Assembly (NCBI GenBank): GCA_026003075.1
Contig: BPGO01000003.1
Coordinates: forward strand, 276,025-340,024
Direction of reading: 5' to 3'
Length of the DNA: 64,000 bases
Origin: Fimbriimonadales bacterium
GTDB lineage: Bacteria > Armatimonadota > Fimbriimonadia > Fimbriimonadales > GBS-DC
The notes under the pieces were generated by a model. The model worked only from the letters and a program-made list of their open reading frames with translations. It did not search any database and was not told where the DNA came from. Within the stretch, counting starts at the first letter, position 1; every line of letters begins with the position of its first letter. The translations under genes were made by a program, and so were the position numbers. Positions 34,618 through 59,918 of this stretch are shown here, piece by piece.

Positions 34618-36360
34618 ATGACTGTTGAGCAGTGGACCTATCTGATTGTAGGGCTGAGCTTCGCGCTCTATATCTATATCGGCTACGCCTCGCGCGTGCG
34701 CGATACGAAAGGGTTCTATGTGGCGGGGCGCGGCGTGCCGCCCATCGCCAACGGCGCAGCGACCGCCGCCGACTGGATGAGCGCGGCGAGTTTTATCTCG
34801 ATGGCAGGGCTTATCGCCACGCTGGGCTACGACGGCGCCATCTATCTAATGGGGTGGACAGGCGGTTATGTGCTACTCGCGCTCTTGCTTGCCCCCTACT
34901 TGCGCAAGTATCGCAAGTTCACCGTGCCCGATTTCGTGGGCGACCGCTATGCGTCGCAGACCGCCCGTACGCTCGCCGCGCTGGCGACGATTTTTATCTC
35001 GCTCGTGTATGTGGCGGGGCAGATGCGCGGCGTGGGAATCGTGTTCAGCCGATTCTTAGCCATCGACATCGCTCAAGGCGTGCTGCTGGGCGTGGCAGTA
35101 ACGGCGTTTTTTGCCATCTTGGGCGGGATGAAAGGCGTCACTTGGACGCAAGCCGCGCAGTATACTATCCTGATTATCGCGTATCTCATCCCAGGGGTCG
35201 CGCTGGCGTACCTGCTGACGGGCAATCCCATCCCTCAACTTGCGTTCGCATTCAGCGACATCAGCGAACGGCTTAACCAGCTCCAGACCGATTTGGGCTT
35301 TAGCGAGTACACTGCGCCGTTTCAGAGTAAGTCGATGCTCGATGTGCTGGCGATTACGGGCGCGCTGATGGTTGGCACGGCGGGGCTACCGCATGTGATT
35401 ATTCGGTTCTACACCACGCCTGATGTGCGCTCGGCGCGCTACTCGGCGTTCTGGGCGTTGCTGTTTATCGGGCTGCTGTATACCACCGCGCCTGCGCTGG
35501 CGATGTTCGCCCGCTACAACTTGATTAACACGCTGCACGGCAAGCCGATGGAGCAGGTGCGCCAGATTGACTGGGTCGCCAAGTGGGAGCAGACGGGGCT
35601 GCTAAAACTCGTGGATAAAAACGGCGACGGCGTCGTGCAGTTCGCGAAGGGCAAAGCGTTTTTGGAGAAAAGCGGCAAGCCCGACTTCAACGCGCCCGAC
35701 AGGAGCAACCCCAACGAGGTGTATCTGGACAACGATATTATTGTCCTCTCTACGCCCGAAGTCGCGCAACTGGCGCCGTTCGTGATTGCGCTGTTGGCGG
35801 CTGGGGGGCTGGCGGCTGCGCTCTCGACGGCGTCGGGACTGCTGATTGCGATGTCCAGCGCGGTGGCGCACGATTTGTATTATCGGGTGTTCAATCCGCG
35901 CGCCCCCGAACGGCTGCGTTTGCTGGTGGGACGGCTGGCGATGGTTCCTGCGCTGTTCGCCGCGGCGTATCTGGGGATTAATCCGCCCGGTTTTGTAGCG
36001 CAGGTGGTGGCGTTCGCGTTCGGCTTGGCGGCGTCGGGGCTGTTCCCGGCGATTCTGTCGGGGATTTTTGACCGCCGTATGAATGCTCAGGGCGCTATTG
36101 CAGGCATGGTGATTGGCTTGGGCTTCACGACCGTGATGATTGCGCTGATGCGGGCGCCCCAACTCTTCGGCGCGCCTGAACCGTATCTGAAGGACTTCTT
36201 CGGGATCAGTGCGGAAGGCATCGGTATCGTGGGTATGGCTCTGAACCTGATAACCGCGCTCGTTGTCTCGCGCCTGACGCCGCCGCCCCCCGCACACATT
36301 CAGGAGATTGTGGACTCGATTCGCATCCCACGCGGCGCAGGCGAGGCGTTGGAGGAATAA
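34618..36360 (+). CDS. Sodium:solute symporter (SSS family, VC2705 type), intact copy
   Basis: This is a 580-residue, 13-helix symporter of the ActP-like branch that pairs with DUF4212. Helices begin at residue 4, and conserved segments include [23 protein letters not shown], the [17 protein letters not shown] region and AAALSTASGLLIAMSSAVAHDLYYR. The family-specific insertion around residues 320-375 contains VDKNGDGVVQFAKGKAF. It probably takes up acetate or a similar monocarboxylate. It is the only complete copy in the window: a 1.56-kb 3' piece reappears at 51.9-53.5 kb, and short 3' ends at 45.85-45.99, 60.47-60.61 and 40.27-40.30 kb. This marks the left edge of the amplified region. Confidence 0.92.
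   Translation: MTVEQWTYLIVGLSFALYIYIGYASRVRDTKGFYVAGRGVPPIANGAATAADWMSAASFISMAGLIATLGYDGAIYLMGWTGGYVLLALLLAPYLRKYRKFTVPDFVGDRYASQTARTLAALATIFISLVYVAGQMRGVGIVFSRFLAIDIAQGVLLGVAVTAFFAILGGMKGVTWTQAAQYTILIIAYLIPGVALAYLLTGNPIPQLAFAFSDISERLNQLQTDLGFSEYTAPFQSKSMLDVLAITGALMVGTAGLPHVIIRFYTTPDVRSARYSAFWALLFIGLLYTTAPALAMFARYNLINTLHGKPMEQVRQIDWVAKWEQTGLLKLVDKNGDGVVQFAKGKAFLEKSGKPDFNAPDRSNPNEVYLDNDIIVLSTPEVAQLAPFVIALLAAGGLAAALSTASGLLIAMSSAVAHDLYYRVFNPRAPERLRLLVGRLAMVPALFAAAYLGINPPGFVAQVVAFAFGLAASGLFPAILSGIFDRRMNAQGAIAGMVIGLGFTTVMIALMRAPQLFGAPEPYLKDFFGISAEGIGIVGMALNLITALVVSRLTPPPPAHIQEIVDSIRIPRGAGEALEE
34797..36360 (+). repeat. Repeat R3, copy 1 (symporter 3' part)
   Basis: This part of the intact symporter is repeated at 51926-53489, offset 17129 bp. 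Differences by eye are few and mostly silent, concentrated in the first 100 bp. Confidence 0.85.
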
Positions 36361-37829: not shown

Positions 37830-37967
37830 TTACGCGCCTCGAACCCCGAACGCCCCCCAGAAGCGCAGCAACACCTCTTGCACAAGGTCTTCTGCGTCAG
37901 CAGTGCAGTGTGTCCACCGCATCGCGACAGAAAACATCCAGGTTCGCCACGCGGTCTCGGTAGGCAT
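37830..37967 (-). pseudogene. ECF sigma factor remnant (region 2 start only)
   Basis: The 45-codon frame from ATG 37967 reads PTETAWRTWMFSVAMRW and ADAEDLVQEVLLRFWGAFGV. This aligns with the first 42 residues of the sigma domains at 45171 and 59794, including the ADAEDIVQE core of region 2. It then runs into unrelated sequence and stops. An RBS-like GAGAGG is retained. The rest of the sigma factor and any receptor domain are missing, which leaves this module with only its propeller gene. Confidence 0.75.
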
Positions 37968-38006
37968 CGATACCTCTCTTGCACTACAATATAATTTAGC
38001 ACTCTC

Positions 38007-38231
38007 ATGCGAGATTCCTGCTGTTTCCAGCCCGAATACTGGATCGTTGACCCCGACCGCGAGTACGCGGAGTTCTGGCAGTTGGATGAGACGGGCGCAT
38101 ATCGCGTGGCGTTCGCAGGCAGCGAGGGCGTTTATCGCAGTCGCGAACTGAACGGCTTTTGGTTGCGCGTGGAGTGGCTGTGGCAGCAGCCTCCGATGGC
38201 GACGGTTCTCCAAGAGTGGGGACTGCACTGA
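38007..38231 (+). pseudogene. Uma2-family endonuclease fragment (C-terminal part)
   Basis: The 74-codon frame contains EYWIVDPDREYAEFWQLDE, then GAYRVAFAG and LNGFWLRVEWLWQQPP. This is the usual C-terminal third of Uma2 (DUF820) proteins, nuclease-fold proteins of unknown role that are common in Armatimonadota, Cyanobacteria and Chloroflexi. The catalytic N-terminal two thirds are absent, and the first eight codons are unrelated. A TATAAT at 37990-37995 lies 11 nt before the ATG, so the fragment may still be transcribed. It was probably brought in with the restriction-modification genes that follow. Confidence 0.65.
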
Positions 38232-38242
38232 CGCTCCTAAGG

Positions 38243-38248
38243 TATACT
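38243..38248 (+). promoter_or_regulatory. -10 box placed for leaderless transcription of the R-M operon
   Basis: GGTATACT ends 6 nt before the ATG at 38255, and no ribosome binding site is present. Confidence 0.55.
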
Positions 38249-38254
38249 TTCGGC

Positions 38255-39403
38255 ATGTCGCGTCCTGTCGTGCGTTTGCAAGGAAGCATCCAGAGCCTAC
38301 GCTTCAACGGGCAGCCCGCGACCTTGCCTAACTATGAATGGAGCGATTTCAATATCAATGCAGCCCGTTCTCCATGCAAAGTGCGCTTAGCTGACGGAGC
38401 TGGTCTGGCAGTGTCCAAATGGACAGGTCCGAAGCGCACACGCACCTATCCACTTGCAAAAGTGTACGATACTTACTCGCACAGCGGTAAGATTGTCACT
38501 GTTATACCTATCATCAAGGATGAGGGACGCGGCGAGCGAGAAAACGACACTAACCTTGACCGAGTGAACTTTATCACGCTGTCATGGATGAACCTGATGG
38601 GCGTGTATGTCATCCTCGCCTGGTATTGTGATGCTGATAAGAAAGATAACTACCGAATCACGCGCCAGCGATTAGACAACGATTATGTGCGTCAGAAGAT
38701 TGAAGAAGTAGCACGCTACAAAATGGACGCCCATCACTGGAACCAAGACCATTTCGTAAACGAGTTTGTTCCTCTCTACGAAAAAGCGTTGCATAGCTAC
38801 GCATTAATCGCCCAAAAGTTGGGCGTCGCTATGCATTCCCAGCAAAGGCTACTTTCGTTTCTCGATGCCGTACGTTCTACGGATAATCCGTGCAAGTTAG
38901 ATCTTGCAAAGTACGCCGAACTTTCTCTCTCGGCGTCCGAGCGCGCTGCATTACGAGAGACCGCTACTGAACATCGGATGGAGCGTGTCCAAGTAGGGAA
39001 CGCCAAGGGCTTCTTTGAGATACATAACTACTTGGGCGGCGTGTACTACCTGACTGCTGATGAGGTTATCCTGAATGGGGGCAATCAGGCTATCATACAG
39101 GAGAGCAAGAACACCACCAAGCGTCTCCTACCTTCACTGAGCGACATCAAGGATGGTCTGTTCAAGCTTTTACTGTTCTCGCAGCTTCAAGAGTTACGAC
39201 TTGGAGGGGCGTCGCTACAGTTTCGTACCCGACTGCGCTTAACGGGCGTCTTTAGGGGGAAACTGGAGCTACCTGCCGAACCTGAGGTGTTGAAATCGTT
39301 CACTACAGGCTGGGGAGAGCCTGTTCGCCGAAGTTTGCTCTGGCTGAATGAGGAACTGAGGCGACTTAGCATAGAGGGCTTCCTGGAGGGAACTCACTCA
39401 TGA
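38255..39403 (+). CDS. Putative type II restriction endonuclease
   Basis: The start ATG at 38255 follows a TATACT by 6 nt. I do not recognise a named family for the 382-residue protein. It overlaps a DNA adenine methyltransferase by 4 bp (ATGA), and it has a PD-(D/E)xK-like core: Asp269 in LTADEVILNGG, then Glu283-Ser-Lys285 in AIIQESKN. That spacing is typical of restriction nucleases, and the region after it is helical. An earlier segment, PIIKDEGRGERENDTNLDRV, is also acidic and may contribute to the fold. Taken with its partner the best reading is the nuclease of a type II system. The recognition site cannot be told from sequence. The R-M pair interrupts the duplicated module array. Confidence 0.65.
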   Translation: MSRPVVRLQGSIQSLRFNGQPATLPNYEWSDFNINAARSPCKVRLADGAGLAVSKWTGPKRTRTYPLAKVYDTYSHSGKIVTVIPIIKDEGRGERENDTNLDRVNFITLSWMNLMGVYVILAWYCDADKKDNYRITRQRLDNDYVRQKIEEVARYKMDAHHWNQDHFVNEFVPLYEKALHSYALIAQKLGVAMHSQQRLLSFLDAVRSTDNPCKLDLAKYAELSLSASERAALRETATEHRMERVQVGNAKGFFEIHNYLGGVYYLTADEVILNGGNQAIIQESKNTTKRLLPSLSDIKDGLFKLLLFSQLQELRLGGASLQFRTRLRLTGVFRGKLELPAEPEVLKSFTTGWGEPVRRSLLWLNEELRRLSIEGFLEGTHS

Positions 39404-40296
39404 CAAAGAGTCCACTTCGCTTTCCTGGCGGCAAGTCGCGGGCGATTGGGCAGATTCTCCCTCTGATACCTGACTTTGACGAATATCGCGAGCCGATGGT
39501 CGGAGGCGGCTCGGTTCTGTTGGCGTTGCGCCAGCGTTCTCCGCAGCGCAGGTACTGGATGAACGACCTCAACTACGAACTCTATTGCTTCTGGAAGGTC
39601 GCTCAGGAGTGCGCCGACCGCCTCGCGGATACGCTCCATCGCCTGCACAGCGAGACTCAGGATGGTAGGACGCTGTTCTATCGCCTGTTGGAACGCTATG
39701 GGCAGGGTGACGAGTTCGAGCGCGCCGTGCGCTTCTTTGTGTTGAATCGCATCACTTTCTCAGGGACAGTAGACTCAGGCGGCTACTCGGAGCAGGCGTT
39801 TCGCGGACGGTTCACCCCTTCTGCGATTGAGCGCATCCGACAAGTTGCGCCTCTGTTGCAAGGTGTACGAATCACCCACGGGGATTACGAACCCGTATTG
39901 CGCGAAGCAGGCGATGAGGTGTTCATCTTTTTAGACCCGCCGTACTACTCCGCGACGAACTCGCGTCTGTATGGCAAACGCGGCGAACTGCACCTAAACT
40001 TCGATCATCATCGTCTGGCGCGGGTGCTGAACCAGGTCGCGCATCGCTGGCTGCTTACTTATGACGACAGCCCCTTTATTCGCGAGCTGTACGCTGACTA
40101 TGCGCAGGTACGATGGACGCTGCAGTACGGAATGAATAACTACAAGCAGCCGTGTGCGCGTGCTGGGCGTGAGTTATTCATCGCGAACTACCCGATTCAG
40201 GCGCGGGATTCCTCGCCGCAACTCGCTTTAGTTTTCGAGAGGAACTGGAGCCGTTTCTATTCCACTGCAGGCGCAGGCGAAGCGTTGGAGGAGTAG
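39400..40296 (+). CDS. DNA adenine methyltransferase (D12 class, Dam-like)
   Basis: This N6-adenine methyltransferase has motif I as SPLRFPGGKSRAIGQI at residues 4-19 and motif IV DPPY at residues 179-182 (FIFLDPPYYSATN), the D12/alpha class order. The start ATG overlaps the nuclease stop. The last residues, GAGEALEE, are not methyltransferase-like. They are the exact C-terminus of the sodium:solute symporter, because the duplicated block that begins at about 40270 starts with the symporter's last codons. The methyltransferase is therefore fused at its very end to a module boundary, probably with little effect on activity. It would protect the host from the adjacent nuclease. Confidence 0.88.
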   Translation: MTKSPLRFPGGKSRAIGQILPLIPDFDEYREPMVGGGSVLLALRQRSPQRRYWMNDLNYELYCFWKVAQECADRLADTLHRLHSETQDGRTLFYRLLERYGQGDEFERAVRFFVLNRITFSGTVDSGGYSEQAFRGRFTPSAIERIRQVAPLLQGVRITHGDYEPVLREAGDEVFIFLDPPYYSATNSRLYGKRGELHLNFDHHRLARVLNQVAHRWLLTYDDSPFIRELYADYAQVRWTLQYGMNNYKQPCARAGRELFIANYPIQARDSSPQLALVFERNWSRFYSTAGAGEALEE

Positions 40297-40352
40297 GGTG
40301 TCCCCCAGCACGGGTGAGAACCGATTTTGGCTGCGGGTGGAGGGTTAGGGAA

Positions 40353-40386
40353 CGCGATGGCGGTAAGGCGCGCTCACCCCATCGCG
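40353..40386. terminator. Hairpin between methyltransferase and propeller 2
   Basis: Inverted repeat CGCGATGG/CCATCGCG (40353-40360, 40379-40386) lies between convergent genes. The same element is at 53546-53579, before paralogue 4. Confidence 0.6.
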
Positions 40387-40392
40387 CCCTAA

Positions 40393-41754
40393 TCATCGCG
40401 GCGACATCTTGACCTCCAAGTGATCGGGATGGAACTCTATCCAGTACACATTACCATGTTTATCCACATCCCACAGGTTAATCAGCCGCCCGACCAAGTT
40501 CTCCTGATGTCCATAGCTGCCTATCAGGCGCAGATTCGAAGCGCGAGGACGGACAAAACGCCCATCCGGCGTGAACTCAATAATCCAGAAGCCGTCCATC
40601 AGGGCTATGCCACGATCCGGGTCAGCAGGATCGTCCACCGTAATCCAATGGCGGCGTGTCGCGCTATAGACCCGATAGAGATGTCCCGCCTCATCCGTCG
40701 CAATCGCAAGGTGTCTCTCCAGGTTCACCGTGCCCACAAACCCATCCCACACATTCGGAACGCGGTCCGAAATGTCCAGATGCCAGACGAACTTCCTGAC
40801 CACCTCGCCATCAGGACGAACACGCTTGTACGGATCCTTTCTAAAGAGCGTGATTGTATCGGTTTGGGGTTCCTCGTCAGAGCGCGAGTGGATCACAACA
40901 AACTGAACCTCCATCCGCCCCTCCGCTCGTACATCGTAATCGCCTATGATAATCTCGCCCCGATAGCGGTCGATTCCCGCCTGATCATATGATGGGTAAT
41001 CCAGCAGATTGGATCCCCCATCTGGATGGATGACCAGCAAGCGTCCTTCCAATTGCTTTGTTCCACCCTCTTCAGAAACGATTTGGCGAGCCAAGAAGTA
41101 GACCCTTCCGTTGCGATCCACCTCAAAAAACTCAGGTGTGGCGACTTCTGAGTCTAAGCGAAACTCTGTTGCCGCCCGTTTGATCGCCTCCCCCACTGCC
41201 TCCGTGCGCTGCTTGTCGTAGGTTCCGTCGGGGCGGTAGATGGCGACACCACGCTTGGCATCGTCCACATAGAGCCAGCCTTGTTCGTCCACCCGAATTC
41301 GGGAGGGGAAGCCGTGTTTGAGTTTGATGGTGCGCACCCACTGTCCCTGACGATTGTAGACCTGCACCCACGGCGCCAGCTGGTCATCTTCTGTAGAGGT
41401 CTCTGCTTGAGGGGGTAGCTCGAGATTCTTGTCATAGTGGCGCAGAGGGTCGGCGATGTAAAACAGTTGCCCATCCCAGCTGACACAGAAGGTCGTGGGT
41501 CCACCGCCTGGTAGCGGTTCCCGCAACTCGTCGCCGTTCACCTCGCTGATCAGCCGTGAGCCAGGAAAGCGCACCCGCAGCTGGGTCGGCTTCTCACCGT
41601 AGGCAACTTTGAACAGGGAGACGGGCCGTGAGTCGGTTTGGATAGGAGGCGTTCGTCCAAAGCTCACGGCTGCAATGGTCAGCAAGCTAATCAGCACCAG
41701 CAACATCGGTGCGAGTTCACTCAGGGTTTCACTCTTTCGTAGGGTTTTTCGCAT
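40393..41754 (-). CDS. Secreted beta-propeller-like protein, paralogue 2
   Basis: The ATG at 41754 is preferred because GAGGTGA precedes it; a GTG three codons earlier overlaps that site. The hydrophobic signal (ELAPMLLVLISLLTIAAVSFG) is followed by the blade-like pattern of the family: FKVAYGEKPTQLRV, TFCVSWDGQLFYIAD, WVQVYNRQGQWVRTIKL, RIRVDEQGWLYVDDAKRGVA, FEVDRNGRVYFLARQIV, and LWDVDKHGNVYWIEFHPDHLEVKMSPR. The mature chain is about 415 residues. It lies 15 bp downstream of the sigma-receptor A gene, so the two form one transcription unit. It is nearly identical to paralogue 4 (substitutions cluster around the RKDPYKRVRPDGEVVRKF segment). Confidence 0.78.
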   Translation of the reverse strand: MRKTLRKSETLSELAPMLLVLISLLTIAAVSFGRTPPIQTDSRPVSLFKVAYGEKPTQLRVRFPGSRLISEVNGDELREPLPGGGPTTFCVSWDGQLFYIADPLRHYDKNLELPPQAETSTEDDQLAPWVQVYNRQGQWVRTIKLKHGFPSRIRVDEQGWLYVDDAKRGVAIYRPDGTYDKQRTEAVGEAIKRAATEFRLDSEVATPEFFEVDRNGRVYFLARQIVSEEGGTKQLEGRLLVIHPDGGSNLLDYPSYDQAGIDRYRGEIIIGDYDVRAEGRMEVQFVVIHSRSDEEPQTDTITLFRKDPYKRVRPDGEVVRKFVWHLDISDRVPNVWDGFVGTVNLERHLAIATDEAGHLYRVYSATRRHWITVDDPADPDRGIALMDGFWIIEFTPDGRFVRPRASNLRLIGSYGHQENLVGRLINLWDVDKHGNVYWIEFHPDHLEVKMSPR

Positions 41755-41769
41755 GGCTCTCACCTCAAC

Positions 41770-44700
41770 TTAGTTTTGGAGTTGCTGCAATCGGCGCAGG
41801 CGATAGGTTCTTCCTGATTTGTCTTCGCGCTCCATCAGGTCGCCCACCGTATCGGGACGCAAACGCGGGTTACCGCGTGTTGGTAGCGTTAGATGCTCCC
41901 CGTCGTTGATGGACACCCTATTATAGCGCCCCGAAGAGTCGATTACGTCCACCCAAATATAATAGTCTGTTAGCTCGTTAGTTTTCTTATGTCTTATCTC
42001 GTCCCGCCGTGTAAACTCGACGATGAGGGCGACGTGGCTTCCTCTTTTGACGAGGATATCGCCTGGCTGGGCATTCAGGCGGGCTTGTTTATTGTCGTCC
42101 CAGCCGCGCGTGTAGGGATAACTGCCGCTGGCTAAATGTTCGGTTCCGATATCCCACCAGCGTCTGGTCTGTCGCCTGTCGTCCTGTCGCCTATCCCAAC
42201 CCAATCCTGCCATCATCGCCGCTGCACTGATAAGTTTGGAGCAATCGATGCCAAATCCCTGATAGCCGCCCTCTGTGCTACTATCGCGCGTTGTAGGATG
42301 GACACGCCCTCCAAACCAGCAACCGCCCCACTCATACCTCACGCCGATAAACGCCGTCGCCCACTCCACTACGCGCAAACGATAGTTGGCGTCGCTCCCT
42401 TCAAAACGCTCACGCACCGACAGACGCATTGCGGCAGTAGCCTCCTCGCCACGCCTGTCCAGTCTAGCAAATATTTTTCTTCTCCCACTTACATATTCGT
42501 CCCAGTCGCTCTTGGGAATTTTCCCGATCCCTGATACCAGATAGTAGTCCCAGTCTTGATGAGTCACGGCAACGGCGTACCGTTTTGTGCCACGTTCTGC
42601 CCTGAATGAGTAGGTGGGTAAGTTACCTTCAATCTGTCGAAGGGTGTACCAGTAGATTCGGTTGGGGCGTTCTCCTGTGTGATGATGAACCTCCAACCAG
42701 CGGAATTCGAGTTTTGGACCAGGCCAGACACCACATCGTGAAAGGTCACTAACAGAACGCGAGAAGAAATTATTATCTGGGCGCTGTTCTCCTCGTGACC
42801 AGGATACATTCCCAATATAAATACCAGAAGGCTGACGAGTGTATACTATACCTTCAGGAAAGTCGATCTCACTATACCCACCGGTTATTACAGGTATCAA
42901 TTCTATCTCGGTACCGACATAAGGATAGAGCAATTCCTGATTGCTACTTGTTGCACCTCCACGAACTGCGTAGAAGATACCTACATTAAAGATTTGATAC
43001 GTTGTGAACTTAGGTGCAACGCCAACTTTTACCTGCCTTGGATGGTTATCACGATAGTAGCCTGCAAAATTATCAGTGAAGCGGGGTATAAAGTGATAGG
43101 TTCCGAACCGAGTCATCTGGTTCTCAGGAATGCGCACAATAACTGTATGTTCGCCTTCAGTAAAATATGCCGAGTCGATATTTTCAGAATGGATAGGATT
43201 GCGCACATCATTCCCAAAATGAACGTCGATGTGTCCACGCGACACCAAAGGGGTTCTTTGGAGATTAGAACGGGTGTTCTGCAGACGATACCTGATAGCA
43301 AAGTCAAAGGTGCGTTGTTGTGAGTTGTATCCCAAGGCAGTCAGGTTGAGCAGATCCATATGCACCCAACTTGCTGTGGTATCTACATTCACGAAGGAGC
43401 CTATAAAAGTTCCCAGACTCGCTGCAATTTGGTAGGGCACCTCGTTCTCTAATCCACTGTAGGGCGTGCGTTGTATCTGGACGAGGACGCGACCCGGCAG
43501 ATTAGTATTATTCACTGAATGCGTCGTCGTACCTGTCTGCACCTGCAGAAGTAAATCGCCCTGCCAGTGGGGTGAAATCAGATCCAGCTCCACAGTCTGC
43601 GTTTGTTCTGTCTCAGAAAAGATGATCCAGTCGTCACTGGCTATACGCACGAGAGGGTTGCTTACATTGAAACGGAACTCTTTTTTACAAACCCTACCTG
43701 CGCCATTTGTCGAATACTGGAGATAGGTCACTTCTGCAGTGTTTTCCCCGTTCGGCATCCCGATATCTGCTCTTCCAACATCGTTGTTCCAACCATAGGT
43801 GTAGTCAAGGGTTCCCTCTTTAGAGCCGCTTAGGCATCGGCAATATTCACGGATCCCATAGGGGTCGTTGCATTCCCAGTAGTCCAAGTACAACCTGCGT
43901 TCTGGAAACGCCCCCTCGGGGCGATTATTTTTGAAGGTTACATAACTGAAGTAAAGCGTGGGCGGTTCAGGCGAATCCGCAGCATAGAACTTGTACATAT
44001 CCGCAACTGTGGTCGTGCATCTGAGCGATTCATGGTCATGTTCGACAAAATAGTACTCCAACCCAACACGGAAGTCTGCGCATCTACCTGGTAGGAAGCA
44101 GCCTGGCTCGCCGATTCGGCAAAATGACCCTAATAAAGTTCCACCTATTCCAAACTGCGGAAAGTTGAACCTCACTTGGAATGAACTTGGCTGCAGCGTC
44201 GATTGCAACGCAAAAATGAATTGCCCATTCTCGTTCGTAAGGGGATGATTCCCGATCCAGTGGATCGTGCCCGCGGTTGTATGGATTTCCACAACAGCAC
44301 CCGGCACTGGTTTGCCATCAACGTCCCGAATCGTTATCGCTCCCCAAATTAGGCTCTCGCCATCGGCAGGGACGCTCGGCATATGCAGTCCTGCTCTCAC
44401 TTGATATCCATTCTCCAAAGCCTGCGTCAGTGTTCCATTCTGAAGAGCGGCGCTAAGCACTTCATTTGCTATCTGGTTCTCTCGGTCAGTCTGAGCAAAA
44501 GATAACTTAGGAGGGTACACTACTACACCCATCGTCAATAGGATTACCACAGCGCGAACTTGTCTTGCAGCGAGCGAGGCAAGCACTCTATCCCCCCCCC
44601 CCGCGCTTTCATCCAGCGGAAAGACTGGTTGATCATCAACATCAGCACCTCCGCCAATTAATTCGCTCTCTGCTCCCCAAAAGGTTGACAGCATAGTCTG

Positions 44701-45171
44701 TGCTTTTTGACGCATTCGGCAGAATTGGCATTTGACGGTTCCCACACTGACATTTAGGCGGCGTGCAATCTCCTGATAGGTATATCCCTCCAGATAAAGA
44801 TGGAGCATCTCCTGCTGTTGGGGAGAGAGCTGCTCCTCAAGCCTCTGTCGAAGCAGCTGCATTTCGGCGTGTTCTATAAGGCGGGTTTCAGAACCCTCGT
44901 GACCCTCGGGTAAAGGAGCATCCCAGTTTTCAAGCGTGATGTTTCGTTGCGTTGGTGCGCGACGGTTCCAATCAATGGTGCGAAGGCGAAGCCAGCGTCG
45001 GCAAACGGTTCGCGCCCACTGATGCGGGTGATATTCCCAAGGCAGGACACCGAACACCTCCCAAAACTGCAGCAGGACCTCTTGCACGATGTCTTCTGCG
45101 TCTGCGGCGCAGCGCGTCAAGGGCTGGGCTACAAAAAGCATCCAAGCACGCCATTCAGTCTCAGTACACAT
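41770..45171 (-). CDS. Sigma-receptor A: ECF-type sigma factor fused to secreted carboxypeptidase-regulatory-like and NlpC/P60 domains
   Basis: This 1133-residue chain is in frame throughout. Residues 1-165 are a complete ECF sigma factor: region 2 with ADAEDIVQEVLLQFWEVFG, region 4 with LSPQQQEMLHLYLEGYTYQE and IARRLNVSVGTVKCQFCRMR. After an acidic linker comes Gly191-193, encoded by 11 consecutive G. Next is a hydrophobic segment at about 200-221 ending SFAQ, which could be a membrane anchor or a signal peptide. An extracellular domain of the carboxypeptidase-regulatory type follows (WGAITIRDVDGKPVPGAVVE), then beta-rich domains, and finally an NlpC/P60-like domain with catalytic Cys near 976 (GFGIDCSKLI) and His near 1043 (GSHVALIVEF). 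ECF factors with large extracellular extensions are known in Planctomycetes; the G-run joint is the odd feature. TATAAT and AGGGGG precede the ATG. Confidence 0.85.
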   Translation of the reverse strand: MCTETEWRAWMLFVAQPLTRCAADAEDIVQEVLLQFWEVFGVLPWEYHPHQWARTVCRRWLRLRTIDWNRRAPTQRNITLENWDAPLPEGHEGSETRLIEHAEMQLLRQRLEEQLSPQQQEMLHLYLEGYTYQEIARRLNVSVGTVKCQFCRMRQKAQTMLSTFWGAESELIGGGADVDDQPVFPLDESAGGGDRVLASLAARQVRAVVILLTMGVVVYPPKLSFAQTDRENQIANEVLSAALQNGTLTQALENGYQVRAGLHMPSVPADGESLIWGAITIRDVDGKPVPGAVVEIHTTAGTIHWIGNHPLTNENGQFIFALQSTLQPSSFQVRFNFPQFGIGGTLLGSFCRIGEPGCFLPGRCADFRVGLEYYFVEHDHESLRCTTTVADMYKFYAADSPEPPTLYFSYVTFKNNRPEGAFPERRLYLDYWECNDPYGIREYCRCLSGSKEGTLDYTYGWNNDVGRADIGMPNGENTAEVTYLQYSTNGAGRVCKKEFRFNVSNPLVRIASDDWIIFSETEQTQTVELDLISPHWQGDLLLQVQTGTTTHSVNNTNLPGRVLVQIQRTPYSGLENEVPYQIAASLGTFIGSFVNVDTTASWVHMDLLNLTALGYNSQQRTFDFAIRYRLQNTRSNLQRTPLVSRGHIDVHFGNDVRNPIHSENIDSAYFTEGEHTVIVRIPENQMTRFGTYHFIPRFTDNFAGYYRDNHPRQVKVGVAPKFTTYQIFNVGIFYAVRGGATSSNQELLYPYVGTEIELIPVITGGYSEIDFPEGIVYTRQPSGIYIGNVSWSRGEQRPDNNFFSRSVSDLSRCGVWPGPKLEFRWLEVHHHTGERPNRIYWYTLRQIEGNLPTYSFRAERGTKRYAVAVTHQDWDYYLVSGIGKIPKSDWDEYVSGRRKIFARLDRRGEEATAAMRLSVRERFEGSDANYRLRVVEWATAFIGVRYEWGGCWFGGRVHPTTRDSSTEGGYQGFGIDCSKLISAAAMMAGLGWDRRQDDRRQTRRWWDIGTEHLASGSYPYTRGWDDNKQARLNAQPGDILVKRGSHVALIVEFTRRDEIRHKKTNELTDYYIWVDVIDSSGRYNRVSINDGEHLTLPTRGNPRLRPDTVGDLMEREDKSGRTYRLRRLQQLQN
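43309..44580 (-). repeat. Repeat R2, copy 1
   Basis: About 1.27 kb coding the first extracellular domains of A is identical by eye to 48902-50173 in B, offset 5593 bp. Outside it, the C-terminal halves of A and B diverge strongly. Confidence 0.85.
44592..44602 (-). repeat. Poly-G tract of sigma-receptor A (11 G, in frame)
   Basis: Eleven consecutive C on the plus strand encode Gly at the joint between the sigma domain and the hydrophobic segment. With 11 the fusion is open; with 12 a TAG follows directly (GGA TAG); with 10 a stop comes after about 15 codons. Confidence 0.9.
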
Positions 45172-45186
45172 CTGTACCCCCTAAGT

Positions 45187-45287
45187 ATTATACATTACTA
45201 TTAGTTACACACAGACAAGATTCCTGCCATTTAGGTACCGAATTGGCGAGGCCATGCGGAACCTTGTTTGCCTGAGTCAGGTACACT
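45187..45287. promoter_or_regulatory. Divergent promoters of the sigma-receptor and purL 5' fragment
   Basis: On the minus strand TATAAT (45187-45192) lies 15 nt before the sigma ATG. On the plus strand GGTACACT (TACACT 45282-45287) ends 8 nt before the purL ATG. Copies lie at 59810-59910 (identical) and around 50785-50882, where the minus-strand box is degraded. Confidence 0.6.
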
Positions 45288-45295
45288 TTGTCCTG

Positions 45296-45985
45296 ATGAG
45301 GACTCTCTGCCGTGCGCCCGAAGTGTGGCGCGACATGGGACTGACCGACGCCGAGTACCAACGCATTGCGGACCTGATGGGACGCGAGCCGACCGATGTG
45401 GAACTGGGCATGTTCGCCGTGATGTGGTCGGAACACTGCGGTTATAAATACTCGCGCCCGGTATTGAGCCTCTTTAAAAGGTATCGCGAGTCGCTGGAGG
45501 GCGCAGGCTTTGAGAACGCAGGCGTGATACCGCTGGATGAGAATCTGGGCGTCGCGTTCAAGGTGGAGAGCCATAACCATCCTTCGGCGGTGGAACCTCA
45601 TCAGGGGGCGGCGACGGGCGTGGGGGGCATCATCCGCGATATCTTCACGATGGGCGCCCGCCCTATCGCGATTTTGGACTCGCTGCGCTTTGGTCCCTTG
45701 AACGAGCCGCGCAACCGCTACCTGTTTGAGCATGTGGTGGAGGGCATCTCCAGCTACGGCAACTGCATCGGCGTGCCGACGGTTGCGGGCGAGGTCTATT
45801 TCCATCCGTGTTATTCGGGCAACCCGTTGGTGAACGCGATGGCGGTCGGCGTCGTGGGGATGGCGCTGAACCTGCTGACGGCGATTATCGTCTCGCGCCT
45901 GACGCCCCCACCTCCTACGCATATTCAGGAGATTGTGGACTCGATTCGCATTCCGCGCGGCGCAGGCGAGGCGTTGGAGGAATAA
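45296..45985 (+). pseudogene. Chimeric purL 5' fragment fused to symporter 3' end (junction type 1)
   Basis: The frame begins as phosphoribosylformylglycinamidine synthase: [39 protein letters not shown], the ATP/FGAR-site segment [15 protein letters not shown] and [20 protein letters not shown]. It covers about the first 184 of roughly 740 expected residues. At about 45846 it switches, in frame, to the last 45 residues of the sodium:solute symporter ([20 protein letters not shown], then RGAGEALEE). The product of 229 residues lacks most of the PurL active site and would not be functional. The start ATG and the TACACT promoter are those of the parent gene. This is a duplication scar rather than a gene. 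Confidence 0.88.
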
Positions 45986-45990
45986 CAAAA

Positions 45991-46017
45991 GCAGGGATGC
46001 AAAACTTGCATCCCTGC
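45991..46017. terminator. Bidirectional hairpin terminator, second copy
   Basis: Identical to the 12-bp-stem hairpin at 36366-36392, here between the purL/symporter scar and propeller 3. Confidence 0.75.
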
Positions 46018-46027
46018 CCAATAAACT

Positions 46028-47314
46028 CTACTGCCTTGGTGACATCATTACGCGCAAGTGGTCTGCCTGAAACTCCACCCAGTACACATTTCCGTCGCGA
46101 TCGACGTCGCACAATCTGTTGGCGAAATCGGTTTCCAGCGGCAGATTGCGCGCACGCACACTTCTGAAATGACCCTGTGCGTCGAACTCCACGATTGCGA
46201 AGCCCCGATCTACGGTAAGCCATTCTCTCGCAGAAGCGGTCGGAATAGCATGCCGCTCGATACGGGACGCCAGGTAAATCCGATATAGACGACCTTCGTT
46301 GTCCGTCATCACATTATCTGGCAACCAGCCGCGATAGGTGAATACATACGCATCGAAAAGATTAGGCGCGTGCTGCGCGATGTCTACTTGCCACGAGAAG
46401 GTTCTCAAGACCTCACCGCTTGAATCGACGACCTTGTAAGGGAGAGATGTATAAAGGTTGCACTGTTCCCTTTTGATTTCACGCTGTTCGCCAACGTCGT
46501 ACAAGACGGTTTCATGCTGCCGAATGTATCCCTCTGTGAGAGGACGCTGGTAGTTAGCGGTGATGATTTCCCCACGATACCGATCAATACCCAGTGGGTT
46601 GAAAATTTCTATCGGGACAAGACGAGTCTGACCGTCTGGCGAAACGATTAGCAGATTGTTTAGTCCTGACTCACCTTCTGGCACAGCCTCGCGACTCAAG
46701 AACACCCAGAAATAGATGCGTCCAAGACTATCTACCTCGCGAAAGATGACCTTTTCCAAGTTATACTGGACACGCGCCGCACGTACCGAGCGTTGTAGCT
46801 GTTCAGACAAGGTCTTGTTGTAGCTCCCGTCAGAGTTGTAGACCTCCACCCCTTCATCGCCGCCAACATACAGGCGTCCGTCCCGATCCACCCGAAAATA
46901 GGAAGGGCGTCCCTTAATTATCTTGATCGTTCTCACCCATTCTCCCCTTCGGTTGTACACCTGTATCCACGGGGGCGATTCTTCCTTGGCTTCACGGACA
47001 GGAGTGTTCTCGTCGTCAAATTTAGGTATGGCGCGCATTGAGTCGCAAAAGTAAAAGAGTTGTCCATCCCAACTGACGCAGAAGTTGTCGACGCCCCCAT
47101 ACGGAGGGTCTTCCTCACCCTCCTCAGCGTCATCGCGTGAACAAAACAGCACCATGCGCAGCTGCTGAGGATGGTCGCCAAACTTCACCTTGAACAGTTC
47201 CTGCTCTCGCGGTTGGGCAAGAGCGAGCCTTCCCAACGGCAGAACAGTGAGTAGAGCGAGCAGTATCGCTGTAAGCAGTCGCCAATCCCTTAGTGTTCGT
47301 CGATTATGTCGCAT
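46028..47314 (-). CDS. Secreted beta-propeller-like protein, paralogue 3
   Basis: The 428-residue product starts MRHNRRTLRDWRLLTAILLA with a signal peptide ending near LALAQ. It then shows the family pattern: ELFKVKFGDHPQQLRMVLF, DNFCVSWDGQLFYFCD, WIQVYNRRGEWVRTIKI, FRVDRDGRLYVGGDEGVEVY, and the C-terminal LCDVDRDGNVYWVEFQADHL. The gene lies 3 bp downstream of receptor B on the same strand and is therefore cotranscribed with it. The protein is identical to paralogue 5. A propeller gene at the 3' side of every sigma-receptor gene argues for a joint function outside the cell, but no enzymatic motif is visible. Confidence 0.78.
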   Translation of the reverse strand: MRHNRRTLRDWRLLTAILLALLTVLPLGRLALAQPREQELFKVKFGDHPQQLRMVLFCSRDDAEEGEEDPPYGGVDNFCVSWDGQLFYFCDSMRAIPKFDDENTPVREAKEESPPWIQVYNRRGEWVRTIKIIKGRPSYFRVDRDGRLYVGGDEGVEVYNSDGSYNKTLSEQLQRSVRAARVQYNLEKVIFREVDSLGRIYFWVFLSREAVPEGESGLNNLLIVSPDGQTRLVPIEIFNPLGIDRYRGEIITANYQRPLTEGYIRQHETVLYDVGEQREIKREQCNLYTSLPYKVVDSSGEVLRTFSWQVDIAQHAPNLFDAYVFTYRGWLPDNVMTDNEGRLYRIYLASRIERHAIPTASAREWLTVDRGFAIVEFDAQGHFRSVRARNLPLETDFANRLCDVDRDGNVYWVEFQADHLRVMMSPRQ

Positions 47315-47317
47315 AGC

Positions 47318-50236
47318 TTACCTCCTTCTATCGGGAATGCGTCGAACTTGATACCCGTGCGTGTTTGCATCCATGAGCCTTCTTAAGGCACACTGATGCC
47401 GTCCCGTGCGGTGATTTCCAGAAGCCTGCTGAGTCTGAATACGAACCCTATTCGCGCTCGCACCCGTTGACTCGAGTAGATCGATGCGAGTTACCAAGTA
47501 GTCAGCAGTCTCTCCTCTTTCGTCCGCGATCGGGGTTTTATCGATACCGTATACGAACATCACATGGCCTCTCCATTTCACTCTTTCTACCAGCTGACCA
47601 GTTCTCTGGTCGCGTACCCAATATGTCTCTGTACGACGCACTAAGATGTCCCCTCTATCAATCTGGATTCGCGCCTCTCTCTCAGAAGAAAAGCCGTTTG
47701 TATAGCTTGACCCCATAAGCATGCCCGTGTTTATCTCTCTCCAATCTGCCGGCCAGGTAATTCCTTCCATTCGCGCGGCGGAAGTAACTAATTTGGAGCA
47801 GTCGATCCCGAAACCTTGATAGCCCCTTGACAAGTCCCTTAATTCAGGGTGTACATATCCTCCGAACCAGCAGCCGCCCAGCTCATATCGCACATTCTGA
47901 AACGCTGTCGCCCACTCCAGCAAGCGCAGCCGATAGTTTGTGTCGCTACCAGTGATGCGTTCACGCACAGAAATGCGCATGGGCGCGCGGGAGTTTGCAT
48001 TATTGATCTTCTCCTTTCCTGTTATGTACTGAGTCCATTCACCTTTTGGTATTCTACCAATCCCCGACACCATATAGTAATTCCAATCAGGATTGGTTAC
48101 GGCAACCGCATAGCGTTTTGTGCCACGCTGAGCCGTTAGGGGAAGGTAAGGCAATTGTGGCGGAGGAATTAGGTATTCATGAAGGATATACCAATACTTT
48201 CGGTTCTTAGTCTCTCCTGTACAGTGCATAACCTCTACCCAACGGAACTCCAGTTTCGGTCCGGGCCAAATCCGCACGCTGTCTGTAGAGGCTTGATCAT
48301 TGCGCTCTATCCGACGGAGATATAGAGTTGTGCGATCGAAGAAATCGCTCCTGCCGACGGGCTTAGGCTCTCCGTTGCTCCAGTTGACTTGCCCGACGTA
48401 GACGCTTGTGCGTGGAATCGTGCCGTAGGAATAGCGGGTAGGCAAATCCACCTCACTATCCGCCCCCAGGACAAAAGCGACGATATCGATCGCATCACCA
48501 GCAAAAGGAAACATCAATCGCTCTCTCGTCTGGTTGTTGAGTTGAGTGATATTACGGATTGCGTAAGCAGTCTCTAACCCCCTCAATGTGGGCGTCCTGA
48601 ACGAAAGCGCTCGCCCAACGACCACCTGCCTTGGTTGCTCGTCGCGGTAATATCGAGCAAAATTATCGGTAAAGCGCGGGATAAAGTGATAGGTTCCGAA
48701 CCGAGTCATCTGGTTCTCAGGAATGCGCACAATAACGGTGTGTTCGCCCTCGGTGAAATATTCTGAGGCAATGTTTTCGGAATGAATAGGATTGCGCACA
48801 TCATTCCCAAAATGAACGTCGATGCGTCCCTGAGACACCAGAGGGGTTCGTTGTAGATTAGAACGGGTATTCCGCAGACGATATCTGATAGCAAAGTCGA
48901 AGGTGCGTTGTTGTGAGTTGTATCCCAAGGCAGTCAGGTTGAGCAGATCCATATGCACCCAACTTGCTGTGGTATCTACATTCACGAAGGAGCCTATAAA
49001 AGTTCCCAGACTCGCTGCAATTTGGTAGGGCACCTCGTTCTCTAATCCACTGTAGGGCGTGCGTTGTATCTGGACGAGGACGCGACCCGGCAGATTAGTA
49101 TTATTCACTGAATGCGTCGTCGTACCTGTCTGCACCTGCAGAAGTAAATCGCCCTGCCAGTGGGGTGAAATCAGATCCAGCTCCACAGTCTGCGTTTGTT
49201 CTGTCTCAGAAAAGATGATCCAGTCGTCACTGGCTATACGCACGAGAGGGTTGCTTACATTGAAACGGAACTCTTTTTTACAAACCCTACCTGCGCCATT
49301 TGTCGAATACTGGAGATAGGTCACTTCTGCAGTGTTTTCCCCGTTCGGCATCCCGATATCTGCTCTTCCAACATCGTTGTTCCAACCATAGGTGTAGTCA
49401 AGGGTTCCCTCTTTAGAGCCGCTTAGGCATCGGCAATATTCACGGATCCCATAGGGGTCGTTGCATTCCCAGTAGTCCAAGTACAACCTGCGTTCTGGAA
49501 ACGCCCCCTCGGGGCGATTATTTTTGAAGGTTACATAACTGAAGTAAAGCGTGGGCGGTTCAGGCGAATCCGCAGCATAGAACTTGTACATATCCGCAAC
49601 TGTGGTCGTGCATCTGAGCGATTCATGGTCATGTTCGACAAAATAGTACTCCAACCCAACACGGAAGTCTGCGCATCTACCTGGTAGGAAGCAGCCTGGC
49701 TCGCCGATTCGGCAAAATGACCCTAATAAAGTTCCACCTATTCCAAACTGCGGAAAGTTGAACCTCACTTGGAATGAACTTGGCTGCAGCGTCGATTGCA
49801 ACGCAAAAATGAATTGCCCATTCTCGTTCGTAAGGGGATGATTCCCGATCCAGTGGATCGTGCCCGCGGTTGTATGGATTTCCACAACAGCACCCGGCAC
49901 TGGTTTGCCATCAACGTCCCGAATCGTTATCGCTCCCCAAATTAGGCTCTCGCCATCGGCAGGGACGCTCGGCATATGCAGTCCTGCTCTCACTTGATAT
50001 CCATTCTCCAAAGCCTGCGTCAGTGTTCCATTCTGAAGAGCGGCGCTAAGCACTTCATTTGCTATCTGGTTCTCTCGGTCAGTCTGAGCAAAAGATAACT
50101 TAGGAGGGTACACTACTACACCCATCGTCAATAGGATTACCACAGCGCGAACTTGTCTTGCAGCGAGCGAGGCAAGCAGTCTAACCCCCCCCCCCCGCGC
50201 TTTCATCCAGCGGAAAGACTGGTTGGTCATCAGCAT
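47318..50236 (-). CDS. Receptor part B: secreted carboxypeptidase-regulatory-like and NlpC/P60-like protein, out of frame with its sigma domain
   Basis: Because the G-run has 12 G here, this part is not continuous with the sigma frame upstream. It can be read from an internal ATG (50236) with GAAGGTG about 4 nt upstream, passing through the G-run into the hydrophobic segment ending SFAQ, which would then serve as a signal peptide. The first 420 residues after that are identical to receptor A (WGAITIRDVDGKPVPGAVVE onward). The C-terminal half differs but ends in a similar NlpC/P60-like domain (LLEWATAFQNVRYELGGCWF, catalytic Cys in GFGIDCSKLV, His in WRGHVMFVYG). The result is a separate secreted protein of about 970 residues, if the internal start is used. 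Its propeller partner lies 3 bp downstream. Confidence 0.7.
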   Translation of the reverse strand: MLMTNQSFRWMKARGGGVRLLASLAARQVRAVVILLTMGVVVYPPKLSFAQTDRENQIANEVLSAALQNGTLTQALENGYQVRAGLHMPSVPADGESLIWGAITIRDVDGKPVPGAVVEIHTTAGTIHWIGNHPLTNENGQFIFALQSTLQPSSFQVRFNFPQFGIGGTLLGSFCRIGEPGCFLPGRCADFRVGLEYYFVEHDHESLRCTTTVADMYKFYAADSPEPPTLYFSYVTFKNNRPEGAFPERRLYLDYWECNDPYGIREYCRCLSGSKEGTLDYTYGWNNDVGRADIGMPNGENTAEVTYLQYSTNGAGRVCKKEFRFNVSNPLVRIASDDWIIFSETEQTQTVELDLISPHWQGDLLLQVQTGTTTHSVNNTNLPGRVLVQIQRTPYSGLENEVPYQIAASLGTFIGSFVNVDTTASWVHMDLLNLTALGYNSQQRTFDFAIRYRLRNTRSNLQRTPLVSQGRIDVHFGNDVRNPIHSENIASEYFTEGEHTVIVRIPENQMTRFGTYHFIPRFTDNFARYYRDEQPRQVVVGRALSFRTPTLRGLETAYAIRNITQLNNQTRERLMFPFAGDAIDIVAFVLGADSEVDLPTRYSYGTIPRTSVYVGQVNWSNGEPKPVGRSDFFDRTTLYLRRIERNDQASTDSVRIWPGPKLEFRWVEVMHCTGETKNRKYWYILHEYLIPPPQLPYLPLTAQRGTKRYAVAVTNPDWNYYMVSGIGRIPKGEWTQYITGKEKINNANSRAPMRISVRERITGSDTNYRLRLLEWATAFQNVRYELGGCWFGGYVHPELRDLSRGYQGFGIDCSKLVTSAARMEGITWPADWREINTGMLMGSSYTNGFSSEREARIQIDRGDILVRRTETYWVRDQRTGQLVERVKWRGHVMFVYGIDKTPIADERGETADYLVTRIDLLESTGASANRVRIQTQQASGNHRTGRHQCALRRLMDANTHGYQVRRIPDRRR
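48902..50173 (-). repeat. Repeat R2, copy 2
   Basis: Identical by eye to 43309-44580. The identity ends 11 nt short of the G-run, with two mismatches next to the run. Confidence 0.85.
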
Positions 50237-51934: not shown

Positions 51935-53489
51935 GGGACTCATCGCCACGCTGGGCTACGACGGCGCCATCTATCTAATGGGGTGGACAGGCGGTTATGT
52001 GCTGCTTGCCCTTTTGCTGGCTCCCTATCTCCGCAAATACCGAAAGTTTACCGTGCCCGATTTCGTGGGCGACCGCTATGCGTCGCAGACCGCCCGTACG
52101 CTCGCCGCGCTGGCGACGATTTTTATCTCGCTCGTGTATGTGGCGGGGCAGATGCGCGGCGTGGGAATCGTGTTCAGCCGATTCTTAGCCATCGACATCG
52201 CTCAAGGCGTGCTGCTGGGCGTGGCAGTAACGGCGTTTTTTGCCATCTTGGGCGGGATGAAAGGCGTCACTTGGACGCAAGCCGCGCAGTATACTATCCT
52301 GATTATCGCGTATCTCATCCCAGGGGTCGCATTGGCATACCTGCTGACGGGCAATCCCATCCCTCAACTTGCGTTCGCATTCAGCAACATCAGCGAACGG
52401 CTTAACCAGCTCCAGACCGATTTGGGCTTTAGCGAGTACACTGCGCCGTTTCAGAGTAAGTCGATGCTCGATGTGCTGGCGATTACGGGCGCGCTGATGG
52501 TTGGCACGGCGGGGCTACCGCATGTGATTATTCGGTTCTACACCACGCCTGATGTGCGCTCGGCGCGCTACTCGGCGTTCTGGGCGTTGCTGTTTATCGG
52601 GCTGCTGTATACCACCGCGCCTGCGCTGGCGATGTTCGCCCGCTACAACTTGATTAACACGCTGCACGGCAAGCCGATGGAGCAGGTGCGCCAGATTGAC
52701 TGGGTCGCCAAGTGGGAGCAGACGGGGCTGCTAAAACTCGTGGATAAAAACGGCGACGGCGTCGTGCAGTTCGCGAAGGGCAAAGCGTTTTTGGAGAAAA
52801 GCGGCAAGCCCGACTTCAACGCGCCCGACAGGAGCAACCCCAACGAGGTGTATCTGGACAACGATATTATTGTCCTCTCTACGCCCGAAGTCGCGCAACT
52901 GGCGCCGTTCGTGATTGCGCTGTTGGCGGCTGGGGGGCTGGCGGCTGCGCTCTCGACGGCGTCGGGACTGCTGATTGCGATGTCCAGCGCGGTGGCGCAC
53001 GATTTGTATTATCGGGTGTTCAATCCGCGCGCCCCCGAACGGCTGCGTTTGCTGGTGGGACGGCTGGCGATGGTTCCTGCGCTGTTCGCCGCGGCGTATC
53101 TGGGGATTAATCCGCCCGGTTTTGTAGCGCAGGTGGTGGCGTTCGCGTTCGGCTTGGCGGCGTCGGGGCTGTTCCCGGCGATTCTGTTGGGGATTTTTGA
53201 CCGCCGTATGAATGCTCAGGGCGCTATTGCAGGCATGGTGATTGGCTTGGGCTTCACGACCGTGATGATTGCGCTGATGCGGGCGCCCCAACTCTTCGGC
53301 GCGCCCGAACCGTATCTGAAGGACTTCTTCGGGATCAGTGCGGAAGGCATCGGTATCGTGGGCATGGCTCTGAACCTGATAACCGCGCTCGTTGTCTCGC
53401 GCCTGACGCCGCCGCCCCCCGCACACATTCAGGAGATTGTGGACTCGATTCGCATCCCACGCGGCGCAGGCGAAGCGTTGGAGGAGTAG
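51926..53489 (+). pseudogene. Sodium:solute symporter lacking its first 60 residues
   Basis: From the junction onward the sequence follows the intact symporter ([19 protein letters not shown] to the end, [12 protein letters not shown]). The first helix and the start codon are missing. An in-frame ATG at the junction could start translation, but without helix 1 and without the DUF4212 partner upstream, activity is doubtful. Differences from the intact copy are few (for example Asp to Asn near FSNISERL, and Ser to Leu in ILLGIFDRR), so the duplication is fairly recent. Confidence 0.88.
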
Positions 53490-53545
53490 GGTGTCCCCCA
53501 GCACGGGTGAGAACCGATTTTGGCTGCGGGTGGAGGGTTAGGGAA

Positions 53546-53579
53546 CGCGATGGCGGTGAGGCGCGCTCACCCCATCGCG
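53546..53579. terminator. Hairpin between symporter fragment and propeller 4
   Basis: Same CGCGATGG/CCATCGCG element as at 40353-40386. Confidence 0.6.
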
Positions 53580-53585
53580 CCCTAA

Positions 53586-54947: not shown

Positions 54948-54962
54948 GGTTCTCACCTCAAC

Positions 54963-55127
54963 TTAGTTTTGGAGTTGCTGCAATCGGCGCAGGCGATAGG
55001 TTTTCTTTGATTTGTCTTCGCGCTCCATCAGGTCGCCCACCGTATCGGGACGCCGACGCGGGTTATCGCGTGTGTCCGGTAGCGTTAGATGCTCCCCGTC
55101 GTTGATGGATACCCTATTATAGCGCCC
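54963..55127 (-). pseudogene. 3' remnant of an NlpC/P60 receptor gene
   Basis: These 165 bp match the last 54 codons of sigma-receptor A (RYNRVSINDGEHLTLP region to RLRRLQQLQ), with a small in-frame length difference near 55075. They end abruptly at GCGCCC, next to the stop of the following gene. The remnant shows that a type-A receptor gene once stood here and was replaced. Confidence 0.75.
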
Positions 55128-59794: not shown

Positions 59795-59918
59795 CTGTAC
59801 CCCCTAAGTATTATACATTACTATTAGTTACACACAGACAAGATTCCTGCCATTTAGGTACCGAATTGGCGAGGCCATGCGGAACCTTGTTTGCCTGAGT
59901 CAGGTACACTTTGTCCTG

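Follow-up and report, generated by a model that had tools for sequence, protein, structure and literature searches.

We analyzed a stretch of 64,000 nucleotides (nt), here called the window, which spans positions 276025 to 340024 of contig C3 in the 2.6-Mb genome assembly (18 contigs, 84% complete) of a hot-spring bacterium of the order Fimbriimonadales, in whose family genomes are almost emptied of the tetranucleotide GGCC. In one gap of an amplified gene array, the window carries two adjoining genes encoding a putative restriction endonuclease (382 amino acids, aa) and a D12 (alpha-class) DNA methyltransferase (298 aa) (Table 1). Both reading frames (38255-39403 and 39400-40296) are intact and overlap by the bases ATGA (39400-39403), as the original prediction, made from the letters of the sequence, had described. 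PADLOC assigned the two products to REase_II (1.1e-56) and MTase_II (2.1e-130), respectively. Consistently, a scan of genome contigs recovered 16 loci, belonging by titles and kinship to Armatimonadota, Chloroflexota and Cyanobacteria, and the methyltransferase gene lay directly downstream of the nuclease gene in all 16; two cyanobacterial assemblies held relatives of the pair, one of them with a broken nuclease. Together with the PD-(D/E)XK-like C-terminal part of the nuclease described below, these results bear out the predicted restriction-modification (R-M) pair. On the whole, the best explanation of our data is a Type II R-M pair of the CbeI type that is mobile within the family, serves ordinary defense and likely recognizes GGCC, a reading to which we assign a probability of roughly 0.8.

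The nuclease is best started at ATG 38255, and the listed TTG start at 38159 is not needed. Its proposed catalytic residues, D269, E283 and K285, are present as claimed and do not vary among the 14 aligned sequences, one of which is the window's (this alignment leaves out L031, L036 and L037, which have broken frames, and L022, L024, L025, L027 and L030, which come from duplicate genomes). We set aside a first structural model built from 6 sequences, which was poor (predicted local distance difference test score, pLDDT, 48.1), and used a model built from 14 sequences (mean pLDDT, 88.7), whose residues ~239 to 382 aligned to PD-(D/E)XK-type proteins (XisH, McrC, EndoMS, BamHI, PspGI and others) with Z scores of 5 to 6.6. 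The motif and the consistent residue range thus make it likely, though not proven, that the modeled C-terminal part is a PD-(D/E)XK nuclease domain. No Pfam family reached its cut-off for the nuclease, RE_HaeIII (PF09556) was not among its Pfam matches at E values up to 1, and its sequence had no match (0) among solved structures. Against our assignment, the Z scores (maximum, 6.6) all fall below 8, a Foldseek search of the whole model against solved structures gave no match at E values up to 0.001, and the presumed likeness of the nuclease to CbeI is drawn from its partner gene, the methyltransferase. By analogy with CbeI, the nuclease most likely cuts unmethylated GGCC.

Upstream of the nuclease ATG, the candidate extended -10 element GGTATACT recurs in the nearest genome (G005) and at L016 and L015, and appears as GGTATATT at L023; in these 4 of 15 other loci it stands 6 to 7 nt before the ATG, and the remaining loci lack it. 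A scan for consensus promoters and terminators listed no promoter at the nuclease start, the GGTATACT element included. As GGTATACT leaves no room for a leader, its position suggests a leaderless nuclease transcript.

Methyltransferase homology and depletion of GGCC

The original prediction called the methyltransferase an adenine enzyme, a label that is taken from the name of its Pfam family (MethyltransfD12, 1.1e-36) and not from observation. Our comparisons point elsewhere. The best match among solved structures was 7m6b (E = 3.3e-96 over residues 1 to 273; 146 of 272 positions identical, 54%), i.e., M.CbeI of Caldicellulosiruptor bescii, described in PMC8616854 as an alpha-class N4-cytosine methyltransferase. 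According to Chung et al. (2012, PMC3425538), M.CbeI, once annotated as a D12 N6-adenine enzyme, methylates cytosine N4 in GGCC; GG/CC is cleaved by its partner CbeI, and the inner cytosine is the target of the related DmtB from Anabaena variabilis. Since M.CbeI itself was mis-annotated in this way, the adenine call on the window enzyme repeats a known annotation trap. Most likely, the predicted enzyme protects GGCC by N4-methylation of cytosine and, given the 54% identity to M.CbeI, an adenine motif is probably the wrong target for a methylome. We infer this target and chemistry, as well as expression of the pair, from sequence. The likeness to the CbeI/M.CbeI system (PMC3425538, PMC3679861) extends to a DPPY motif at the same residue number (179), an adjoining nuclease gene and a thermophilic host; in contrast, the window genes overlap by ATGA, the pair sits in a symporter end, and its target and chemistry are predicted. 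The DmtB-type GGCC N4-cytosine methyltransferases of cyanobacteria, which PMC3425538 groups with M.CbeI, are also among the closest known enzymes, and it is in cyanobacteria that the two assemblies mentioned above carry relatives of the pair. Between the window genome and G005, the ratio of nonsynonymous to synonymous divergence was ~0.07 for the methyltransferase and ~0.13 for the nuclease, which points to constraint on both genes.

To relate the pair to genome composition, we compared tetranucleotide counts with a second-order Markov expectation. In 424 kb of the window genome, GGCC occurred 116 times against 2138 expected, and the pair's own 2.17 kb contained 0 against 6.3 expected. At all 15 ranked loci carrying the pair (L022, the locus of Armatimonadetes bacterium JP3_11, left out), GGCC had the strongest or second strongest depletion of all palindromic tetranucleotides with enough expectation. 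Likewise, among relatives of a Chloroflexota carrier, GGCC stood at 0.00 to 0.21 of expectation in 6 genomes with the nuclease gene versus a median of 0.69 in 13 without it (Mann-Whitney p = 4.4e-4, kinship ignored); 19 of 20 genomes entered this test, G083 (all N) being left out, and carriers were defined by the nuclease gene, intact or not, with matches in G073 and G079 among them. The depletion thus supports, without being proof of, GGCC as the target of the pair.

Several counts tell against so direct a link. In the window genome ACGT (0.07) and CTAG (0.05) are no less scarce than GGCC, so that depletion alone is no proof of a GGCC target, and GATC (0.43) and CCGG (0.41) are moderately depleted. 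G010, a congeneric one-contig genome with no pair found, held 61 GGCC in 360 kb against 2160 expected; among the Chloroflexota genomes without the nuclease gene, G074 held 3 against 234 (0.01) and three others stood at 0.31 to 0.44. As a separate observation, ACGT depletion varies from 0.00 to 0.42 within the genus (samples of 5 to 424 kb).

The moderate depletion of GATC would fit the proposal that the pair consists of the nuclease and an N6-adenine methyltransferase, either Dam/DpnII-like or with another adenine motif. This proposal would also agree with the D12 family assignment, with the DPPY motif and with a match to the NCBIfam dam subfamily (TIGR00571; 3.2e-28). That match, however, scored 99.1 bits, below the curated cut-off of 114.85 bits, the structures of the DpnII methylase (8.3e-11) and Dam (1.4e-8) are far more distant than M.CbeI, and it is GGCC that ranks lowest or second lowest at every ranked locus; we therefore regard an adenine enzyme as very unlikely.

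GGCC scarcity extends well beyond the carriers. Of 18 genomes sampled from the family, 17, whether carriers or not, had GGCC at 0 to 13% of expectation (samples of 3 to 424 kb), the remaining genome, G015, being at 0.77; G070 (SKYG83, 0.07), shown beside the family, is outside the 18. Of 12 sampled genomes of the order outside the family, 10 were at 0.58 to 0.91, one was at 0.22 and one had too little sequence (G054, with an expected count of 2, was counted as uninformative). We rejected the present copy of the pair as the cause of the depletion, because relatives in which no pair was found are equally depleted. We also discarded the idea that a HaeIII-type nuclease (PF09556) brought about the depletion in noncarriers: it was found in 0 of 18 family genomes, many of them incomplete, and other GGCC enzymes were not sought. 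Rusinov et al. (2015, PMC4687349) describe site avoidance as a mark of long-lived R-M systems that can trace lost ones. The strong depletion in both carriers and pair-less relatives is alike in kind; here it covers 17 of 18 genomes of one family. Among the titles listed in a literature search, none pointed to a report of GGCC depletion in Armatimonadetes, which is no proof of absence in print. These patterns suggest that GGCC restriction has long acted in the family, also in lineages without a found pair, and the near-absence of GGCC is probably the trace of long-standing restriction.

A 41-bp repeat at the symporter 3' end

As the original prediction had noticed, the methyltransferase gene ends in symporter codons. 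More specifically, a 41-bp block (40270-40310) is identical to 53463-53503, i.e., the end of the symporter gene copy at 51912-53489 plus 14 bp, and supplies the last eight residues of the methyltransferase (GAGEALEE) and its stop codon. The enzyme has thereby exchanged its own poorly conserved tail for eight symporter-derived residues. Since methyltransferase homologues carry unrelated residues after a conserved LV(F/M/L)ER, this exchange need not harm activity.

In the genome comparisons, the source genome is G000 and the nearest genome by R-M locus is G005, which we took to be the sister species JP3_11 (NKPV01000033.1); the JP3_11 locus shows the same 97% match. Here the symporter gene is followed by the pair and then by a module gene, with two identical 41-bp copies flanking the pair, each comprising the last 27 bases of the symporter gene (stop codon included) and 14 downstream bases. 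The match between these repeats scored 76.8 bits, versus a control maximum of 27.0 (n = 14 control flanks). Across 8 whole genomes searched with up to 3 mismatches, the 41 bp occurred only in G005 (2 sites) and in the window genome (3 sites: the methyltransferase end, an unoccupied symporter end at 53463-53503, and contig C8). This arrangement is as expected of an insertion with target duplication, the route being less certain than the nature of the pair. Insertion of R-M genes with long target duplications is known (Nobusato 2000 and later work, as cited in PMC3031569), and a direct repeat of the target around the pair is the feature shared with G005; here, the repeat is 41 bp and seen in one genome, while the window keeps the right copy only.

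Synonymous divergence between G005 and the window genome was 0.12 for the nuclease and 0.21 for the methyltransferase, against 0.28 to 0.41 for four neighboring genes, and positions 38347-39097 are 99 to 100% identical. The pair, the nuclease above all, therefore seems to have undergone exchange at a later date than the DNA around it.

The insertion model has points to answer. Its single case is G005: in the window the left copy is absent and the 1-kb flanks match no better than controls, and the 14 other loci all scored 28.8 bits or less, although L027, L028 and L033 exceeded their own control maximum by 1.8 to 3.7 bits (at these loci, the methyltransferase gene ends used in the repeat search are only approximate). 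In addition, the divergence of the methyltransferase is not far below that of the lowest neighbor.

The repeats could also derive from tandem duplication of a larger segment, comprising symporter, a Uma2-family gene and the pair, followed by deletion; this concerns the route and leaves the nature of the pair untouched. The whole locus is indeed an amplified array, in G012 the symporter gene is followed immediately on its 3' side by an intact Uma2 gene (L047, 266-895), and a 25-bp Uma2-like stretch (84%) lies just right of the right repeat. Yet that stretch is marginally similar (shuffled sequences did as well in 0 of 1000 cases for the window copy and in 11 of 1000 for the G005 copy), the Uma2 fragment of the window is 71% identical to the G012 neighbor and up to 77% identical to other paralogues, and the G005 repeat is exactly 41 bp and perfect. 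We consider this origin possible but doubtful. We also tried the Uma2 fragment as a mark of an ancestral symporter neighbor, which was suggested by G012 and weakened by the equally similar paralogues. In the other species of the genus examined, the sequence after the symporter differs, unlike in G012 with its Uma2 gene.

Mobility of the pair is further reflected in its distribution. Among 61 genomes (the source genome and 60 relatives), the nuclease matched in 7 and the methyltransferase, at E values up to 1e-30, in 8, all within the family. Two of the seven nuclease matches are incomplete (only a 40-residue fragment in G017; without the first 111 residues in G007), and G001 and G013 have the methyltransferase without a nuclease match, that of G001 at a contig start. 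In G017, a deletion scar (L021, 4434-4703) fuses the start of the nuclease gene in frame to the end of the methyltransferase gene, and the genome sample has a GGCC ratio of 0.07. Array genes were not found within the 4 to 13 kb around the pair at 15 named loci other than JP3_11; the pair thus sits in different places in different genomes. A nuclease search of plasmid and phage collections gave no match, and an IMG/VR scan with the nuclease alignment returned 100 pattern stretches with no relative among them. In G007 (L018, 6582-7836), an unrelated open reading frame (ORF) precedes the shortened nuclease and, by eye, resembles the N-terminal part of a Type I R subunit.

History of the gap and neighboring features

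The original prediction held that the pair replaces the purL scar found in other gaps of the array. This describes the gap well but probably not its history, as the pair likely stood 3' of a symporter and lost the material to its left later. The sigma-factor remnant at the left edge is real: 37848-37992 is 69% identical to 45052-45196, and 37843-37908 is 80% identical to 45047-45112. The left junction, proposed at 37990, must be moved, because resemblance to the intergenic sequence between sigma and purL in other gaps continues beyond it and passes into Uma2 sequence at CCGAAT (38032-38037); consequently, we rejected the ATG at 38007 as a Uma2 start. Although short and below the Pfam cut-off (8.2e-4; 19.3 bits versus 27), the Uma2 fragment is upheld by 58 to 77% identity to Uma2 matches elsewhere in the genus. 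No symporter remains at the left side of the window pair. The arrangements in JP3_11 and on contig C8 suggest that the pair was originally 3' of a symporter and that the DNA to its left was lost afterward, probably by a deletion through the CCGAAT microhomology.

In window coordinates, contig C3 breaks off at a point corresponding to base 51913 and contig C8 opens at one corresponding to 51919, so the two contigs probably adjoin. C8 (L020) carries, in order, the symporter gene, a transposase fragment (1620-1835), a 63-bp remnant of the nuclease gene, a minus-strand block (2205-6240) of HerA, NurA and DruA (DUF4338) genes, the final 73 methyltransferase codons with the 41-bp end seen in the window, and a frame-broken module gene. 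Pfam matches were 2.1e-111 for DruA, 1.5e-11 for NurA and 1.3e-14 for the HerA central domain; PADLOC named DruA and HerA, not NurA. Thus, as read from the sequence, the restriction pair persists in one copy of the site, and a second copy holds defense-type genes of another set.

For the right neighbor of the pair (40393-41763), no Pfam family scored above cut-off, and an Rfam scan of 36 to 42 kb found no family at gathering score. Elsewhere in the window, two array units of at least 4.8 kb (44592-49377 and 59215-64000) are 99.98% identical, i.e., a very recent duplication or an assembly artefact, and a stretch of 86% identity (16976-17060 and 18006-18092) is common to two minus-strand genes lying near each other; judged by eye, it encodes a type IV pilin-like N-terminal signal.

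Table 1. Features in and around the gap that holds the R-M pair (window coordinates)
Feature	Position	Strand	Basis
Sigma-factor gene start, remnant of array module (left neighbor)	37843..37992	-	Similarity to other array gap
Left junction CCGAAT, common to Uma2 and the sigma/purL intergenic region of other gaps	38032..38037		Local alignment of 37841-38060 with 45041-45260
Uma2-family gene, 3' fragment	38032..38231	+	Pfam Uma2 8.2e-4, below cut-off; genus matches
GGTATACT, candidate extended -10 element, 6 nt 5' of nuclease ATG	38241..38248	+	Same element in relatives; function inferred
Putative Type II restriction endonuclease, 382 aa	38255..39403	+	ORF; PADLOC REase_II; D269/E283/K285
M.CbeI-like D12 (alpha-class) DNA methyltransferase, 298 aa, DPPY at 179; probably N4-cytosine, GGCC	39400..40296	+	Pfam; PADLOC; M.CbeI homology
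41-bp symporter 3'-end repeat, right copy; gives last eight methyltransferase codons and stop	40270..40310	+	Identical to 53463-53503
Module gene of array (right neighbor), repeat-propeller-like by eye	40393..41763	-	ORF; 40259-41931 is 97.7% identical to 53454-55127
Same 41 bp at unoccupied symporter end in array (empty or healed site)	53463..53503	+	Identity to 40270-40310

Role of the pair and meaning for the family

The role of the pair is likely plain restriction of unmodified incoming DNA. The original prediction proposed instead that addictive R-M genes could help to retain the amplified array; they would do so by killing any cell in which it is lost. Type II R-M pairs can kill on loss, and the window pair is bracketed by direct repeats of 1.56 kb (34797-36356 and 51926-53485, 98.5% identical), recombination between which would delete it. 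This idea found no support in related genomes, however, and we consider it improbable: G005 keeps the pair with one symporter match (its draft assembly may collapse repeats), the C8 copy has lost its middle, G017 retains the deletion scar only, and no array gene was found near the pair at the 15 named loci other than JP3_11. Scarcity of GGCC also leaves fewer lethal targets. Deletion of the nuclease gene proved possible in C. bescii (PMC3679861), which is no test of addiction.

Returning to ordinary defense by a mobile CbeI-type pair, the likely course of events is as follows. The pair would have entered the 3' end of a symporter gene of the VC_2705 type, duplicating 41 bp of its target, as in JP3_11, and the symporter module was then amplified in the window genome. 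In the gap studied here, DNA left of the pair was probably lost through CCGAAT microhomology, and in the module copy on C8, the pair was disrupted and its middle replaced by the HerA, NurA and DruA genes. Where the pair is intact, the nuclease is predicted to cut unmethylated GGCC, and the D12 enzyme to shield this site by cytosine N4-methylation. From this course we tentatively propose, at a confidence that falls a little short of even, that the symporter 3' end may act as a defense exchange site: the GGCC pair entered with target duplication, was copied with the amplifying module and had its middle swapped for HerA-NurA-DruA in a neighboring copy, so that one genome's slot is filled in two ways, and long occupation of the family by GGCC systems drove GGCC down to a few percent of its expected count, a state outlasting loss of the genes.

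The pair itself is of a known type; the parts of wider interest are the family-wide loss of GGCC and the in-place exchange. For these thermophiles, the predicted modification shifts from adenine to probably N4-methylcytosine at GGCC, which guides methylome and transformation protocols. In the sister genomes, insertion, amplification, loss and replacement of one R-M pair become readable base by base. The loss of GGCC from nearly the whole family, in turn, is a strong example, open to testing, of a restriction footprint still visible in genomes with no such genes found.

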